A DNA stretch of 64,000 nucleotides from Algiphilus aromaticivorans DG1253 (GTDB lineage Bacteria > Pseudomonadota > Gammaproteobacteria > Nevskiales > Nevskiaceae): the NCBI RefSeq assembly GCF_000733765.1, contig NZ_JPOG01000001.1:2790001-2854000 (forward strand). Direction: 5' to 3'. Below are positions 54,762 to 62,115 of this stretch, piece after piece (positions within the stretch are counted from its first letter, which is position 1; each line of letters begins with the position of its first letter). The translations under genes were made by a program, and so were the position numbers. A model generated the notes under the pieces. It worked only from the letters and a program-made list of their open reading frames with translations, was not told the origin of the DNA and ran no database searches.

Positions 54762-57700
54762 CAGCTCATCCCCGCGCCTGCGGGGAACACCTCTACGCCG
54801 AGCGCATCCACTACGACCCGGCCGGTTCATCCCCGCGCCTGCGGGGAACACTCAACATCGGCCACATCGTCGGCACGATCCTCCGGTTCATCCCCGCGCC
54901 TGCGGGGAACACCGAATAGACGACGCCGTCATCGTCGGTGGAGACGGTTCATCCCCGCGCCTGCGGGGAACACGCCGCACCGCCGAGGCTGTTTTCCAGC
55001 TGCACCGGTTCATCCCCGCGCCTGCGGGGAACACGAGCGCACGAAGGCCTTTCGCCGGCGAAAGGTCGGTTCATCCCCGCGCCTGCGGGGAACACACGGG
55101 CTCTGGCAAGAGCCTCATACTCGCCGACGGTTCATCCCCGCGCCTGCGGGGAACACCCGTGACGCAGGCCGCCAAGGGAGAGTTCGAGCGGTTCATCCCC
55201 GCGCCTGCGGGGAACACTGGCGGCTGCCGGTCGCGGGCCACAGCGCGATCGGTTCATCCCCGCGCCTGCGGGGAACACCCGTGACGCAGGCCGCCAAGGG
55301 AGAGTTCGAGCGGTTCATCCCCGCGCCTGCGGGGAACACTGGCGGCTGCCGGTCGCGGGCCACAGCGCGATCGGTTCATCCCCGCGCCTGCGGGGAACAC
55401 TCGCCCAGGCGCCGCCAGATGTCCGGCATAGCCGGTTCATCCCCGCGCCTGCGGGGAACACATGCCGCCGGACCCAATGGAGACGACGGGGCACGGTTCA
55501 TCCCCGCGCCTGCGGGGAACACTCAAGCCGCAGCAAAAGATAAAAGCTATTACCCGGTTCATCCCCGCGCCTGCGGGGAACACACGACACTAGCAACGTG
55601 CCCGTTTTGCGCCAGCGGTTCATCCCCGCGCCTGCGGGGAACACCCAGGCGGCGATACTCGGCGGCCAGGCGTGCGAGTTCGGTTCATCCCCGCGCCTGC
55701 GGGGAACACTGTAGTCGCGGCGCTCGGCGTGGTGGTCCTGGCGGTTCATCCCCGCGCCTGCGGGGAACACATCATTTCCGGGGGCCGGGGCGTCACCCAC
55801 GCCGGTTCATCCCCGCGCCTGCGGGGAACACCAGTACTGATCGCGGAAGCGATCGGCGAGCTGCGGTTCATCCCCGCGCCTGCGGGGAACACAGTTTTTC
55901 CAGCTGGTCGAGGAGCATCGCGTGCGGTTCATCCCCGCGCCTGCGGGGAACACTACGACCGAGATGACACAAATCGGCGAGGAATCGGTTCATCCCCGCG
56001 CCTGCGGGGAACACCTCGATGATGCGGGACCAATAGCCATCCTGGCCGGTTCATCCCCGCGCCTGCGGGGAACACGGCGTTGGCGTGGCCGGATTTGCGG
56101 CGGATGGCGGTTCATCCCCGCGCCTGCGGGGAACACGTGATCGACGAGGTTTCTTTGTACGCCGGGCTTCGGTTCATCCCCGCGCCTGCGGGGAACACGG
56201 CTGGGTCGAGGTCAGCCGCAGCCCCGATCCCGGTTCATCCCCGCGCCTGCGGGGAACACGGCTGTTCGCTGGACGATCCCAAGTCGGTGACCGGTTCATC
56301 CCCGCGCCTGCGGGGAACACGTCTACGGCGAGATCGCGCACATCATCGCTTACGGTTCATCCCCGCGCCTGCGGGGAACACACCTGGTCAGGCGTTCGGC
56401 CGTCGAGCGCGTCCGGTTCATCCCCGCGCCTGCGGGGAACACCCGGCCGAGGTCGTCGTCATGATTGATTCGGTCGGTTCATCCCCGCGCCTGCGGGGAA
56501 CACGCGTCAGGGTCATCGGTGACGTGGTGAGTGATCGGTTCATCCCCGCGCCTGCGGGGAACACCTCCTCCGGTGCGACACAGATTTTGCGTCGCTCGGT
56601 TCATCCCCGCGCCTGCGGGGAACACTCGATTCCAGCATCCACGACGTGGGCGGCGATCGGTTCATCCCCGCGCCTGCGGGGAACACGTGCGAGCCGTCGT
56701 TCTTCCGGACCTGGTGCGCGGTTCATCCCCGCGCCTGCGGGGAACACCAGGCACCAGGCCCGGAACAAATCCCAGATGTCGGTTCATCCCCGCGCCTGCG
56801 GGGAACACTCGGATTCCCGGTTACCGATATCGCCGACGCTCGGTTCATCCCCGCGCCTGCGGGGAACACGGTGAAGCGCGTGAGGCTGCCCGGGGTGCGG
56901 TCGGTTCATCCCCGCGCCTGCGGGGAACACGCCCTGCAGGCAGTTGAGCAGCACGAACAGGGCGGTTCATCCCCGCGCCTGCGGGGAACACTCGCGCGCG
57001 ACGATGGCCGCATCCAGGTTCTCCGGTTCATCCCCGCGCCTGCGGGGAACACCCGACGCCCTCGGGGATCATCGTCGGGTCGACCGGTTCATCCCCGCGC
57101 CTGCGGGGAACACGTCTGGACCCGCTGCTGCGCGAAACCGAGGTGCGGTTCATCCCCGCGCCTGCGGGGAACACGCGCGGCGCGGCTGGCGGCAACTAAA
57201 GCCGTCCGGTTCATCCCCGCGCCTGCGGGGAACACGACGACCGGCCGACGCCGTTCAACCACAACGACGGTTCATCCCCGCGCCTGCGGGGAACACTTCT
57301 GCGCCTCGCGCGTCAGCTGGTGCTTGGTCGGTTCATCCCCGCGCCTGCGGGGAACACATGGTGAACGCCCTGCGCGTTGCGGCGCAGCGCGGTTCATCCC
57401 CGCGCCTGCGGGGAACACGCGGCTGATGTCGCCCAGGGTCTGCTCGAAGGCGGTTCATCCCCGCGCCTGCGGGGAACACCCAACGCCATCGGGGATCATC
57501 GTCGGGTCGACCGGTTCATCCCCGCGCCTGCGGGGAACACACGAGTCAGACTACCCGCTGCAGGGCATCCGTCGGTTCATCCCCGCGCCTGCGGGGAACA
57601 CAAGATGCGCGTATCGCAGCGTCGTGCGGATATCGGTTCATCCCCGCGCCTGCGGGGAACACCCATCGACGCCCACCACCGGGACGATGCCGCCCGGTTC

Positions 57701-58455
57701 ATCCCCGCGCCTGCGGGGAACACAGACCCGCTCCCAGCCGAGGGGGGATCTCGCGCGGTTCATCCCCGCGCCTGCGGGGAACACGCCGAGCGGAAACTCG
57801 CGCGTAGCGCCGAAGGCGGTTCATCCCCGCGCCTGCGGGGAACACACCTGCCGGCTCCATTCCAGCTCGCACAGCGTCGGTTCATCCCCGCGCCTGCGGG
57901 GAACACATCCGGTTGCCGGCGATGATGTCGGGCCGGCACGGTTCATCCCCGCGCCTGCGGGGAACACCTGCGCAATAGCCTCGCGCCAGTCGGTCGGGCC
58001 GGTTCATCCCCGCGCCTGCGGGGAACACCAGGTGAAGGGCGAGATCAGCGTCATCGACAACGGTTCATCCCCGCGCCTGCGGGGAACACGCGCTGCTCAA
58101 GGACGTGCTGCCCGGCCAGACCGGTTCATCCCCGCGCCTGCGGGGAACACTGAAGCCCGCCTCGAGCGGGCTCCTCATTCTTCGGTTCATCCCCGCGCCT
58201 GCGGGGAACACCGGGTCGCGGCCTTCCAGGACCTGCATCAGCGCGGTTCATCCCCGCGCCTGCGGGGAACACCAGAAGGAAGTCTCCCGGATAAAGGCTG
58301 CGCGCGGTTCATCCCCGCGCCTGCGGGGAACACACGCCGACGGCGGTCGCTGCTGGCACGCCGGACGGTTCATCCCCGCGCCTGCGGGGAACACCTCGGC
58401 TTCCAGCTGCCCGCGACCCGCGACGGCGGTTCATCCCCGCGCCTGCGGGGAACAC
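54762..58455 (-). CRISPR. Type I-E CRISPR array, 61 repeats and 60 spacers
   Basis: 29-bp repeats beginning CGGTTCATCCCC and ending GGGGAACAC on the plus strand, with a CCCCGC/GCGGGG stem. The reverse strand gives the standard I-E form (GTGTTCCCCGC...), so transcription is leftward from the leader beside cas2. Spacers are 32 bp except one of 33 (56137-56169) and one of 36 (55645-55680). The leader-distal repeat (54762-54790) has two mismatches, as expected for the old end; the others appear identical. Spacers 55157-55188/55218-55249 are repeated exactly at 55279-55310/55340-55371. Confidence 0.99.
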
Positions 58456-58549
58456 TCTTCGCGTAACCGCCTGATCCATAAGGGCAGAAACTTGAAGGAA
58501 AATTCTACCGGCGATTTAGGCGACGTGCCGCCGGCAAGTATCCGGGTTG
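58456..58549 (-). promoter_or_regulatory. CRISPR leader
   Basis: 94 bp between cas2 and the first repeat. It is AT-richer than its surroundings (TAGAATTTTCC on the transcribed strand) and should contain the array promoter and integration signals. No confident -35 could be placed. Confidence 0.7.
58464..58476 (-). promoter_or_regulatory. IHF-like site in the leader
   Basis: GATCAGGCGGTTA on the leftward strand, 8 bp from the first repeat. It matches WATCAANNNNTTR at all but two positions, and IHF binds at this place in the E. coli I-E leader to direct Cas1-Cas2. Weak match, strong position. Confidence 0.35.
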
Positions 58550-59789
<1,240 letters not shown>

Positions 59790-59790
<1 letters not shown>

Positions 59791-60320
59791 CACAGCTCTC
59801 CGCAGATACGCAGCGTTTCACGGACCAGCGCGGTCCCCAGGAAGTAACCGCTCCCGCGCAGCTTGCGGACTATCGGAGCCACCTCGTCCAGCGAGCCGTG
59901 TCGTTTGGCCATTACGAGCACCCCCAATGTCCCGATCACGAGCACTTCGCAGTTGCGCGCGATTGATCTCGCCGCACGGTCATCCATCAATACCCATGCA
60001 TCGCGCCGCAGCGCGACGCTGATAGCGGCACGCTCGCCCGCACCTAGCGGGAGGTCGGCCAGCCAAGGGTGCGTAGCGCTGGCGCATAGGCTGAAAGCAG
60101 CCTCCGTCTTGATGGCCTTGCGCAATGCTTTCGCGTCTTCGCGCGAAGGATGGTGCTGGCTCTCCTTCCAGACCACGCGCGGCACGAGGACTTGACCAAA
60201 ACCGTTCGCCAACCACGCAAGCCCGTCGACCCGGGCAAGCGCCAGCAACGGCCCGGTGTCGGCAACAAGCAGCCGCTCAGTCGAGGCCAAGCCCCGTGAG
60301 CTCCTCGCGCAACTCGTCAA
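59790..60320 (-). CDS. DUF3368 / PIN-domain protein (putative toxin) within the cas operon
   Basis: 176 residues at most. PIN-fold DUF3368 pattern: VADTGPLLALARVDGL (Asp), RVVWKES (Glu), GAGERAAISVAL, LMDDRAARSIARN (Asp pair), and VIGTLGVLVMAKRHGSL. PIN proteins paired with UPF0175-type antitoxins act as VapC-like ribonucleases. All expected acidic residues are present, so it may be active. Its start is uncertain: the ATG at 60320 overlaps the antitoxin by 44 bp; a CTG just before LLVADTG is an alternative. Its stop overlaps cas1, so the two are translationally coupled. Confidence 0.85.
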
Positions 60321-60606
60321 CCGGGTAACCGGCTGCCGGTACGCGATGCCGAGCCATAAGATCCAGGAAATCGCTGCGGCTCATGCCGGCCAGCTCGGCG
60401 GCCACGCCTTGGCTGATGGTTCCGTCCCGGACAAGCTGCAAAGCAAGAGCCGTCCTGACGCCACCGGTAAGCAGACTCTCACTGAAGGGCACGGCGACAA
60501 AGAGCGGATTGCCCCGCTTGGATACCAGCGAGAGTTTGCCGGCTTCGGCGCCGCGCACCAGCTCACCGGTGCGCTCGCGTAAATCACGGATCGTGAAGTT
60601 TTCCAT
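60277..60606 (-). CDS. Phd/UPF0175-type antitoxin within the cas operon
   Basis: 109 residues. The N-terminal half (FTIRDLRERTGELVRGAEAG) resembles Phd/YefM DNA-binding antitoxins; the C-terminal half (DGTISQGVAAELAGMSRSDF and PVDELREEL) is UPF0175, the usual partner of DUF3368 PIN proteins. So it appears to be a fusion of two antitoxin modules. ATG at 60606 has GAGG nine bases upstream. Lies 44 bp after cas6e, preceded by an inverted repeat that could be its operator. Confidence 0.82.
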   Translation of the reverse strand: MENFTIRDLRERTGELVRGAEAGKLSLVSKRGNPLFVAVPFSESLLTGGVRTALALQLVRDGTISQGVAAELAGMSRSDFLDLMARHRVPAAGYPVDELREELTGLGLD

Positions 60607-60624
60607 GTGCTTGTGCCTCAGCAT

Positions 60625-60644
60625 GTGCCATCAAAAGATAGCAC
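60625..60644. promoter_or_regulatory. Inverted repeat upstream of the antitoxin gene
   Basis: On the minus strand GTGCTATC-TTTT-GATGGCAC, an 8-bp inverted repeat with one G-T mismatch, 18 bp before the antitoxin ATG in the cas6e-antitoxin gap. Suited to be an autoregulatory operator or an RNA hairpin that separates the modules. Confidence 0.45.
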
Positions 60645-60650
60645 TTTGAC

Positions 60651-61352
60651 TCAGGCCGGGCGCACCAGCAACAGGCCACAACCGAACGCTTTCGCGTGGC
60701 CGATACCCTGCAGAAGCGCCATCCGGAATCGCTCTACATCCTGCACTTCAAGCTCTCCTGAGAAATCCACCGTGCTGAGCTGAATGGCTTTACCGTTGGC
60801 CCGCTTTGGGGCTTTCTCAGCCACCCGGTTGTAGTTGTCTACGCGCAGACTGCCATCGATCACCGCGAATCCCGCCTGCTGGGCGCGACTACGCAACCAC
60901 TGCCCGCAGACATTCGTGACCAGCTCATACAGTGGCGGCTTGTCCTCGTCGACCCAATCCTTCCAGCGTGCAAGTCCGCGCGCATCCAGCATCTCGCGCT
61001 TGGCGTGCATAACGACATCATCGCGGCGCGACTTGCCCTCGCGTTTATGCGTAACAACGGGATTCGCACGCAGCTCGAAACGAAGGCATGCGCCCTCCGC
61101 CACTTTCGGGTCGTACTCGCGCGACTGCACGTCCCAGCCGTCCATCGCGGGCGAAGGCCGGCGCGCGGAAACCACGTGATAACGGGGCATGCCATCGACA
61201 TCAGAGCTGCGGAACAGGAAATCGCGCGGCGTGCCTTCCGGCGCTTCGAAGAATTGCCACAGCCATTGATGCTCGCGGTAGGGCCCTGTCGCGCGACTTG
61301 CCGCGGCATCGCGCTCGCGGCCCGGCTTTGGCGTGATCATACTGAAGTACAT
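60651..61352 (-). CDS. cas6e: CRISPR RNA endonuclease Cas6e
   Basis: 233 residues. REHQWLWQFF holds the catalytic His; the tail GIGHAKAFGCGLLLV is the Gly-rich loop of Cas6. Cleaves the pre-crRNA repeat hairpin and stays in Cascade. Start at 61352, one base after the cas5 stop. Confidence 0.95.
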   Translation of the reverse strand: MYFSMITPKPGRERDAAASRATGPYREHQWLWQFFEAPEGTPRDFLFRSSDVDGMPRYHVVSARRPSPAMDGWDVQSREYDPKVAEGACLRFELRANPVVTHKREGKSRRDDVVMHAKREMLDARGLARWKDWVDEDKPPLYELVTNVCGQWLRSRAQQAGFAVIDGSLRVDNYNRVAEKAPKRANGKAIQLSTVDFSGELEVQDVERFRMALLQGIGHAKAFGCGLLLVRPA

Positions 61353-61353
61353 T

Positions 61354-62115
61354 TCAGCCCTCCGCTTCCAGAAAGGCGACATGCTCCACTCGATCGCCAA
61401 ATTGCCATTTCCCGCGTGAGATGAGCCGGTCCTTGCGCATTGCCGTCAGGCTGGATTCGTCGACGCCAGCGTCAATGCTCTCGTCCCAGACGAGCCGTGA
61501 CAGAGCGGGCAAAGCTTCCACTGGTGCATTGCCCCAGCGATCACGATTCGCTTCTCGCGCTTGGTCATGCTCTGCGGCGTATCCCGTGAAGGCTTCCATC
61601 GCCGAATCAGCCTGCAGCACCCTGGGGCACAGCGGAGCGTCGAGCGGACAGGATTTGCGGCCGAGATACAGCACGAACCGAGGTTGCGCTAGCGCGCTGC
61701 TCAGCTGATCCAGGGAATACGGCGCCTCGGCCTTCTCCTGAAGGGCGACCAACCAGCCGGCATTCTCGCGATAGTCGCGTTTGGAGATGATCGTGGTGAG
61801 CGCCGTTCGCGCGTGGGCGAGTTCATCGCGCCGTGTCGCATGAGGGCGCCCCTTCATCCGGGATTGGCTAGGCATCTGCACCGTGTGGTAATCGCGCATC
61901 AGTGTCCCGGTGGACAGGACACCGATCGCCAATCCGTAACCCTGCGCCAATCGATGGTGCTCAGCCTCCTGTTCGCGGCGAAGGCCAAGCGCAGCAGCCA
62001 GGAGTCCGAATACGCCGGATGCGCTGGGATAGATATCCGTACCGCGATAGTCGCCTACAGCCGTAGCACCCCAGGCGGCCAGCGACCCCTGCAGTTGGAA
62101 AACAAGGAAGGCCAT
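61354..62115 (-). CDS. cas5e: Cascade subunit Cas5e
   Basis: 253 residues. FLVFQLQGSLAAWG start and SASGVFGLLAAALGLRRE (the Gly-rich segment of Cas5). Caps the 5' handle of crRNA. ATG lies four bp after the cas7 stop. Confidence 0.95.
   Translation of the reverse strand: MAFLVFQLQGSLAAWGATAVGDYRGTDIYPSASGVFGLLAAALGLRREQEAEHHRLAQGYGLAIGVLSTGTLMRDYHTVQMPSQSRMKGRPHATRRDELAHARTALTTIISKRDYRENAGWLVALQEKAEAPYSLDQLSSALAQPRFVLYLGRKSCPLDAPLCPRVLQADSAMEAFTGYAAEHDQAREANRDRWGNAPVEALPALSRLVWDESIDAGVDESSLTAMRKDRLISRGKWQFGDRVEHVAFLEAEG

Follow-up and report, generated by a model that had tools for sequence, protein, structure and literature searches.

Toxin–antitoxin cargo between the effector and adaptation genes of type I-E CRISPR–cas loci

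A toxin–antitoxin pair within a cas operon

Why should a type I-E CRISPR–cas operon carry a toxin–antitoxin (TA) pair between its interference and adaptation genes? The operon forms the right end of the window, the 64,000-nucleotide stretch of DNA that we analysed (contig positions 2790001-2854000), and lies on the minus strand of the 3.8-Mb genome of Algiphilus aromaticivorans DG1253. On that strand the order is cas3-cas8e-cas11-cas7e-cas5e-cas6e-antitoxin-PIN-cas1-cas2-CRISPR. The genes from cas11 to cas2 were named from Pfam and NCBIfam matches. The genes cas8e, which touches the window edge, and cas3, which lies outside it, were assigned from the size and position of long open frames; cas8e and cas3 profiles match 74/83 and 73/83 searched loci, respectively. 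The last effector gene is cas6e (60651..61400, minus strand; TIGR01907), the 3' end of which is the site of exchange breakpoints and tail scars in some relatives. The adaptation genes cas1e (58861..59790, minus strand; TIGR03638, 379.8 bits) and cas2e (58550..58864, minus strand; TIGR01873) are followed by a minus-strand CRISPR array at 54762..58455 in which 60 spacers separate 61 repeats. The repeat farthest from cas2 is the only one that differs from the others, and the array looks recently active.

The junction between the last effector gene and cas1 is referred to here as the seam. At its downstream end the PIN stop codon TGA (59792-59790) overlaps the cas1 start codon ATG (59790-59788) in the sequence TGATG. 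The initial annotation had placed an antitoxin gene and a PIN gene at the cas6e–cas1 boundary, in the cas orientation and with this overlap, and both the sequence and the family matches bear it out. Its premise that cas6e normally leads directly into cas1 holds in an E. coli plasmid locus, for instance; among the loci nearest to the window Cas1e (best 80 of 582 relatives), however, about half have an insert there.

The toxin gene (59790..60320, minus strand) encodes a PIN-domain protein of the DUF3368 family (PF11848, 37.7 bits, cut-off 27.3) that had no match in NCBIfam. Two TTG codons, at 60320 and 60290, are candidate starts, the latter being the likelier. The best Foldseek matches of its AlphaFold2 model (pLDDT 93) are PIN and VapC folds with TM-scores of about 0.5, among them VapC4 and the VapBC15 complex; a profile search against the sequences of solved structures returned 2mdt at E 0.79 and nothing else. 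The acidic residues, already described as intact, are kept in all 11 seam copies of the protein in an alignment assessed by eye.

Directly upstream on the same strand is the antitoxin gene (60277..60624), which overlaps the PIN gene by 14 or 44 nt according to the start chosen and itself likely starts at the ATG at 60606 (MENFT). Its product combines a Phd-like N-terminus (TIGR01552, 24.6 bits, cut-off 20.8) with a UPF0175 C-terminus (PF03683, 52 bits, cut-off 27.9); at 16.6 bits the match to PF02604 is under the cut-off for that family. Residues 1-40 of the antitoxin alignment profile match the antitoxin VapB46 (E 2.6e-4), which is outranked by matches of two designed repeat proteins to residues 42-91. 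The structural model of the antitoxin is weak (pLDDT 69), and a structure search with it gave no match at E 0.001. The UPF0175 and DUF3368 families each occur once in the genome at E 0.001. By families and fold, the identification of the pair as a type II, VapBC-like TA module is well supported. The PIN protein is predicted to be a ribonuclease, most likely a toxic one, and the antitoxin is predicted to bind DNA. Pairs of this kind, with a COG2886 (UPF0175) antitoxin adjoining a PIN gene, have been predicted to be TA modules with an HTH antitoxin (Makarova et al. 2009, PMC2701414). The relevant passages of that paper treat them as general TA pairs and not as cas genes, whereas here the pair lies within a cas operon; replying to a reviewer, the authors saw no particularly strong link between TA and CRISPR loci.

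Just before the antitoxin gene is a palindromic, operator-like site with the core GTGCTATCTTTTGATGGCAC (60625..60644, minus strand; no mismatches to the pattern), 18 nt ahead of the likely antitoxin start. Its chance expectation in the window is 0.01 at up to 3 mismatches, and, allowing up to 2 mismatches, it has no second copy in the 3.8-Mb genome. The interval described in the initial annotation ended at 60644, which is the end of the palindrome, a feature absent from that description. The full 22-bp palindrome, TGTGCTAYCATTTGATRGCACA, is found 16-26 nt ahead of the antitoxin start and recurs, with at least 18 of 22 bases matching, before 17 of 22 distinct antitoxin homologues, comprising 10 of the 12 that are embedded among cas genes and 7 of the 10 that are free (no cas genes in flanks of roughly 1.5 kb). 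In each of the 17 positive homologues the match was reached by none of 200 shuffles, and, because the pattern was read from those same homologues, it is the recurrence that counts and not the fit. Two loci (L071 and L110) have, by eye, a different palindrome in the usual place (about GTGCCCACACCTGTGGGCAT in L071), and in both loci the antitoxin carries HTFTIRDLRDRT close to its start, so a joint change of site and antitoxin is possible there. The conservation and position of the palindrome make it a likely, putative operator of the antitoxin gene and, by the same token, a likely operator upstream of cas1-cas2. Within it, TGCTATCTT is similar to an extended -10 element; a sigma-70 promoter scan of 58400-61500, the palindrome included, found no -35/-10 pair.

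The presence of a toxin gene within a cas operon recalls CreTA, in which an RNA toxin is repressed by Cascade with a guide and which guards CRISPR (PMC10097628; PMC8730458), a parallel drawn in the initial annotation. The likeness is at most functional, namely a toxin–antitoxin system within a cas locus on which the cell comes to depend. Unlike CreTA, the window pair consists of a protein toxin, the gene for which is conserved, with its own protein antitoxin and a DNA palindrome, and no guide was found. Outside the array the window contains no sequence like the array repeat at up to 8 mismatches (one at 9, at position 146), and so no degenerate repeat within the operon, and no array spacer matches the cas operon (blastn-short, E 0.05). 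It is thus very improbable that Cascade with a degenerate guide represses this toxin.

Recurrence and content of seam inserts

Among 61 genomes (the genome itself and 60 relatives), PIN matches occur in three: the genome itself, G027 and G036. In G027, which is of the same family, the order is cas6e-antitoxin-PIN-cas1-cas2, and the PIN match, listed with one internal stop, has a frame that is open from its start codon; in G036 the pair occurs without the cas genes searched for. Identity between G027 and the window is 65% for the antitoxin, 56% for PIN, 83% for cas1 and 75% for cas2, and on the effector side it is 31% for cas6e and 35% for cas5 and cas7. In a broader sample of the class the pair also adjoins cas1 in G184 and G263, so that the arrangement first noted in the window is found elsewhere too. 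That sample listed 37 PIN matches in 25 of 369 genomes, and those at cas1 are the window's own and two others. Searches of viral contigs found no relative of the antitoxin and, with Cas1e as query, seven distant loci.

These data bear on whether the PIN nuclease works with CRISPR, either in RNA or prespacer processing during adaptation or in abortive infection triggered by an attack on Cascade or the array. Such a role would be in keeping with the shared operon, the overlap with cas1 and the listing of the family as an anti-phage candidate: the window PIN protein and antitoxin match the PADLOC models for PDC-S70 (best E 7.8e-32 and E 3.5e-5, respectively), a phage defence candidate in PADLOC-DB. 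The PDC families derive from a guilt-by-embedding survey (doi 10.1101/2024.01.29.577857), and antiviral validation is described in PMC12988326 as pending for most candidates of this type. However, most homologues listed for the class sample lie away from cas1, unrelated cargo occupies the same place, and loci free of inserts have the same cas genes, all of which makes a CRISPR-associated nuclease improbable. A toxin dedicated to CRISPR is not supported, given that 3 of the 37 listed PIN matches in the class sample (its own included) are by cas1 and that the seam takes many unrelated families. Nor does the class sample support a dedicated, cas-like accessory gene of type I-E systems, as the family is not mainly found there with I-E cas genes.

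We measured the junctions of related operons with profiles of eight cas genes. The genome scan used an alignment of 18 Cas1e sequences as query and retained the best 80 of 582 relatives, so it samples loci near the window Cas1e. With the window, G027 and G263, all three selected for their cargo, this gave 79 loci with an effector gene before cas1; L102, which is identical to L100, and L077, L111 and L132, in which no effector gene was found upstream, were left out of the counts. The seam holds an insert of at least 500 bp in 39 of these 79 loci, or in 36/76 without the three chosen ones, and is shorter than 120 bp in 32/79. In the same sample of the best 80 plus the chosen loci, inserts of this size are found in 0/81 cas1–cas2, 0/74 cas5–cas6e, 0/76 cas7–cas5 and 0/73 cas8e–cas11 junctions, in 2/70 cas11–cas7 junctions and in 10/71 cas3–cas8e junctions. 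Fisher p values for the seam against these six junctions range from 4e-6 to 2e-15, with related loci not being independent; the comparison with the cas3–cas8e junction (39/79 versus 10/71) accounts for the value of 4e-6, which the relatedness of the loci makes too small. When loci were thinned to single representatives at 95, 90 or 85% Cas1 identity, seam inserts remained in 31/67, 23/53 and 19/38 loci, respectively.

A DUF3368 gene is present at the seam in 11 of the 79 loci (best 80 of 582 plus chosen), and the UPF0175/DUF3368 family is represented in 12, one of which (L087) has the antitoxin only; the divergent antitoxin of L072 was recognized by eye. An accidental, meaningless single insertion, which the initial annotation had proposed to recognize by homologous loci lacking both the pair and any conserved insertion, might be suggested by the absence of inserts from sampled I-E loci outside the Cas1e neighbourhood of the window. 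It is already contradicted by the 12/79 loci with this family (11 with DUF3368 and one with the antitoxin alone) and the 39/79 with any insert, and is very improbable.

Four loci (L074, L103, L133 and L148) have the variant order cas11-cas6e-cas7-cas5-cas1, in which the seam follows cas5. Two of the four have a seam insert, compared with 0/4 at each of two other junctions of this order (p 0.12), and strict specificity of the insert for cas6e was rejected on these grounds.

In the class sample, which has 22 close loci besides the window and in which cargo was identified by eye without Pfam, 11 of the 19 loci with a measured gap have a seam insert of at least 500 bp. In L045 and L055 TA-like genes occupy the place but cas6e is absent from the nearest 1.5 kb; L061 carries repeats there. 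This sample overlaps the genome scan, because L045 and L088 carry the same cargo. Farther afield, a phylum sample has 15 close loci, none with an insert of at least 500 bp (L180 reaches 356 bp; L171 and L060 are one locus). None of 19 loci with distant Cas1e and a measured gap has such an insert either (largest 266; L064 has no upstream cas gene), and no insert was found in 10 annotated plasmid I-E loci, an eleventh (H36) being unannotated at this place. The first two of these results reject a universal hot spot. Thus, the seam is well supported as a recurrent place of insertion, and the hot spot is clade-specific rather than general.

The seam cargo was labelled with Pfam on representatives and otherwise by eye. 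TA genes are present in 26 of the 39 inserts (best 80 of 582 plus chosen), and the other 13 comprise eight with KilA-N, three with Bro-N with or without RhuM, one with YhcG and one with Uma2. Considering frames of at least 70 residues in gaps of at least 290 bp, 77 frames on the cas strand matched 29 Pfam families: PhdYefM (15 matches), UPF0175 (11), DUF3368 (11), KilA-N (8), ParE (7), PIN (6), Bro-N (3), DUF433, DUF5615, MazE-type and RhuM (2 each) and others once or twice. The 81 control frames on the opposite strand of the same gaps gave no Pfam match, which indicates that recognizable seam cargo reads in the cas direction. PADLOC models matched by seam cargo are PDC-S70 (11), PDC-S22 (9), PDC-S13 (3) and also PDC-S05, S04 and S23. 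A KilA-N protein of about 274 residues lies between cas6e and cas1 in L081, L083, L090, L106, L115, L121, L127 and L143, with a fragment in L107; the carriers are Pseudomonas relatives and others, and the nine seam frames that match PDC-S22 are presumably these proteins.

Pairs also occur at the cas3–cas8e boundary, in both orientations: Phd with PIN in L119 (and, by eye, in L127), Phd with ParE in L125 and, on the opposite strand, YafQ with RelB in L118 and ParE in L107. Within Cascade itself, Methylobacter L128 has DUF4160 and DUF2442 genes between cas11 and cas7e, where L147 has a DUF2442-like frame by eye.

Cargo, cas1 and effector exchange

In 31 of the 39 inserts (best 80 of 582 plus chosen) the last cargo stop codon lies between -20 and +12 nt from a possible cas1 start. 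The exceptions are L078, L087, L118, L120, L125, L128, L133 and L144, and in L109 the spacing requires a TTG start. In the Methylobacter loci among them (L118, L120, L125 and L128) a Phd-ParE pair does not abut cas1. The DUF3368 gene is closely spaced to cas1 in 9 of 11 loci; in L078 it is about 430 nt away and in L039 a second pair intervenes.

To follow cargo through the loci, ten cargo labels were mapped on quick trees of cas1 and cas7 for 68 of the 79 loci, the labels being partly assigned by eye and the cas7 tree having long branches. Five loci with gaps of at least 120 bp and unclassified cargo (L080, L086, L099, L116 and L141) were left out, as were six with short or missing cas7e or cas8e. 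Cargo labels change 23 times on the cas1 tree (shuffled mean 34.5; as low in 0/200 shuffles) and 30 times on the cas7 tree (shuffled mean 34.6; 1/200), which is also better than shuffled. Presence of an insert is labile, with 19 changes between insert and none on the cas1 tree. Among ten pair-bearing loci, antitoxin distances correlate with those of cas1 (r 0.58, p 0.0006) versus r 0.16 (p 0.23) for cas7, and PIN distances show r 0.37 (p 0.014) with cas1 versus r 0.06 (p 0.33) with cas7. Cargo therefore follows cas1 better than it follows cas7.

Direct comparison of Methylobacter loci locates the exchange. Between L120 and L128, blastn (E 1e-10) finds no DNA match over a stretch that begins early in cas3 and ends 61 nt short of the cas6e stop codon; from there the match is 92% through the Phd-ParE pair, and cas1-cas2 match as well. 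The effector set of L113 is a different one, followed by an old cas6e tail and then by the same Phd-ParE region (86.5%) and cas1-cas2 (92%). In these Methylobacter loci, effector modules have been exchanged upstream while cargo and cas1-cas2 stayed.

Old tails were sought with a cas6e-tail profile in the 47 gaps of at least 120 bp. L039 and L113 have two each, those of L039 lying one ahead of each TA pair; L075 and L144 also have tails, and L087 has a weak match (E 0.01). On the opposite strand of the same gaps nothing scored below E 0.4. In L039 (8200-9400) and L113 (8460-9330), TA pairs are stacked, each with an old cas6e 3' tail ahead of it, an arrangement that looks like layers left by successive effector exchanges.

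Cargo is also lost and decays. Antitoxin without toxin is found in L087, L145 and L147, and the antitoxin is kept beside a broken toxin in L113 (ParE) and in L123 (the PIN gene of an RHH pair, frame-shifted; L123 is a metagenome-assembled genome, in which the shift may be an assembly error). Both genes of the pair are damaged in L118, and no toxin left alone was met among the decayed pairs, which were assessed by eye and not systematically. The five cases in which the antitoxin was kept fit addiction and equally show that cargo can be lost; from the pattern of gene decay, addiction is plausible, with the chances close to even.

A serious rival to any role in CRISPR biology is a tolerated passenger, in which the pair inserts where it is least harmful, maintains itself through addiction and contributes nothing to CRISPR. 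The great variety and turnover of cargo agree with this, as do the pairs in either orientation at the other module boundary, cas3–cas8e, and a pair of close relatives, L127 (occupied) and L119 (empty), the operons of which are collinear (81 and 78%), KilA-N cargo of about 0.86 kb being present at the TGA/ATG junction in L127 only. Against a passenger stand the excess of inserts at the seam far above that at cas3–cas8e in the best-80-plus-chosen sample, the reading of recognizable cargo in the cas direction, with 29 Pfam families against none on the opposite strand, and the fact that cargo mostly abuts cas1 and follows it through effector exchange. On balance we consider the passive passenger possible but doubtful.

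A proposed role in retention and expression of the adaptation genes

The reading that we favour, and consider probable, is that mobile type II TA cargo remains linked to the adaptation genes, probably making the cell addicted to them and driving their expression. The TA module would arrive as mobile cargo between the effector module (Cascade) and the adaptation module (cas1-cas2), bringing its own palindromic operator. Given this operator and the tight coupling to cas1, cas1-cas2 would most likely lie in the transcription unit of the TA module. Loss of the TA-cas1-cas2 block would then remove the labile antitoxin and free the toxin, so that the block would be kept. Expression of cas1-cas2 would in part follow TA autoregulation, although for such operator-driven control, which we infer from the arrangement of the sequence, we put the chances at somewhat short of even.

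In a stronger version, TA modules at the seam would hold adaptation modules in place during effector exchange and also make cas1-cas2 an antitoxin-gated operon. Stress or phage would drain the antitoxin and free the operator, and spacer acquisition would rise as the toxin slows the cell. We regard this combined proposal as unlikely.

It has been reported that the adaptation module mostly stays during in situ exchange of effectors, which is put down to escape from anti-CRISPRs (PMC6452270). The loci described here share this behaviour and differ in having cargo at the point of exchange, whereas the relevant parts of that report give TA cargo at the breakpoint no role. The matches of window and seam genes to PDC models mean that the idea of such genes embedded in defence loci is already public. 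Our literature search, which covered sources other than bioRxiv preprints, found no description of TA cargo at the effector–cas1 seam; as far as that search shows, the seam position, the palindrome ahead of cas1-cas2, the link to cas1 and the scars are new.

Addictive cargo at the exchange point would be a concrete and testable addition to what is known of effector exchange, and the cas6e remnants that precede stacked TA pairs would offer a readable record of past exchanges. If the cargo operator also drives cas1-cas2, it would act as a switch for the timing of new immune memories. Selfish TA pairs may thus help to retain, and to switch on, the genes that make those memories.
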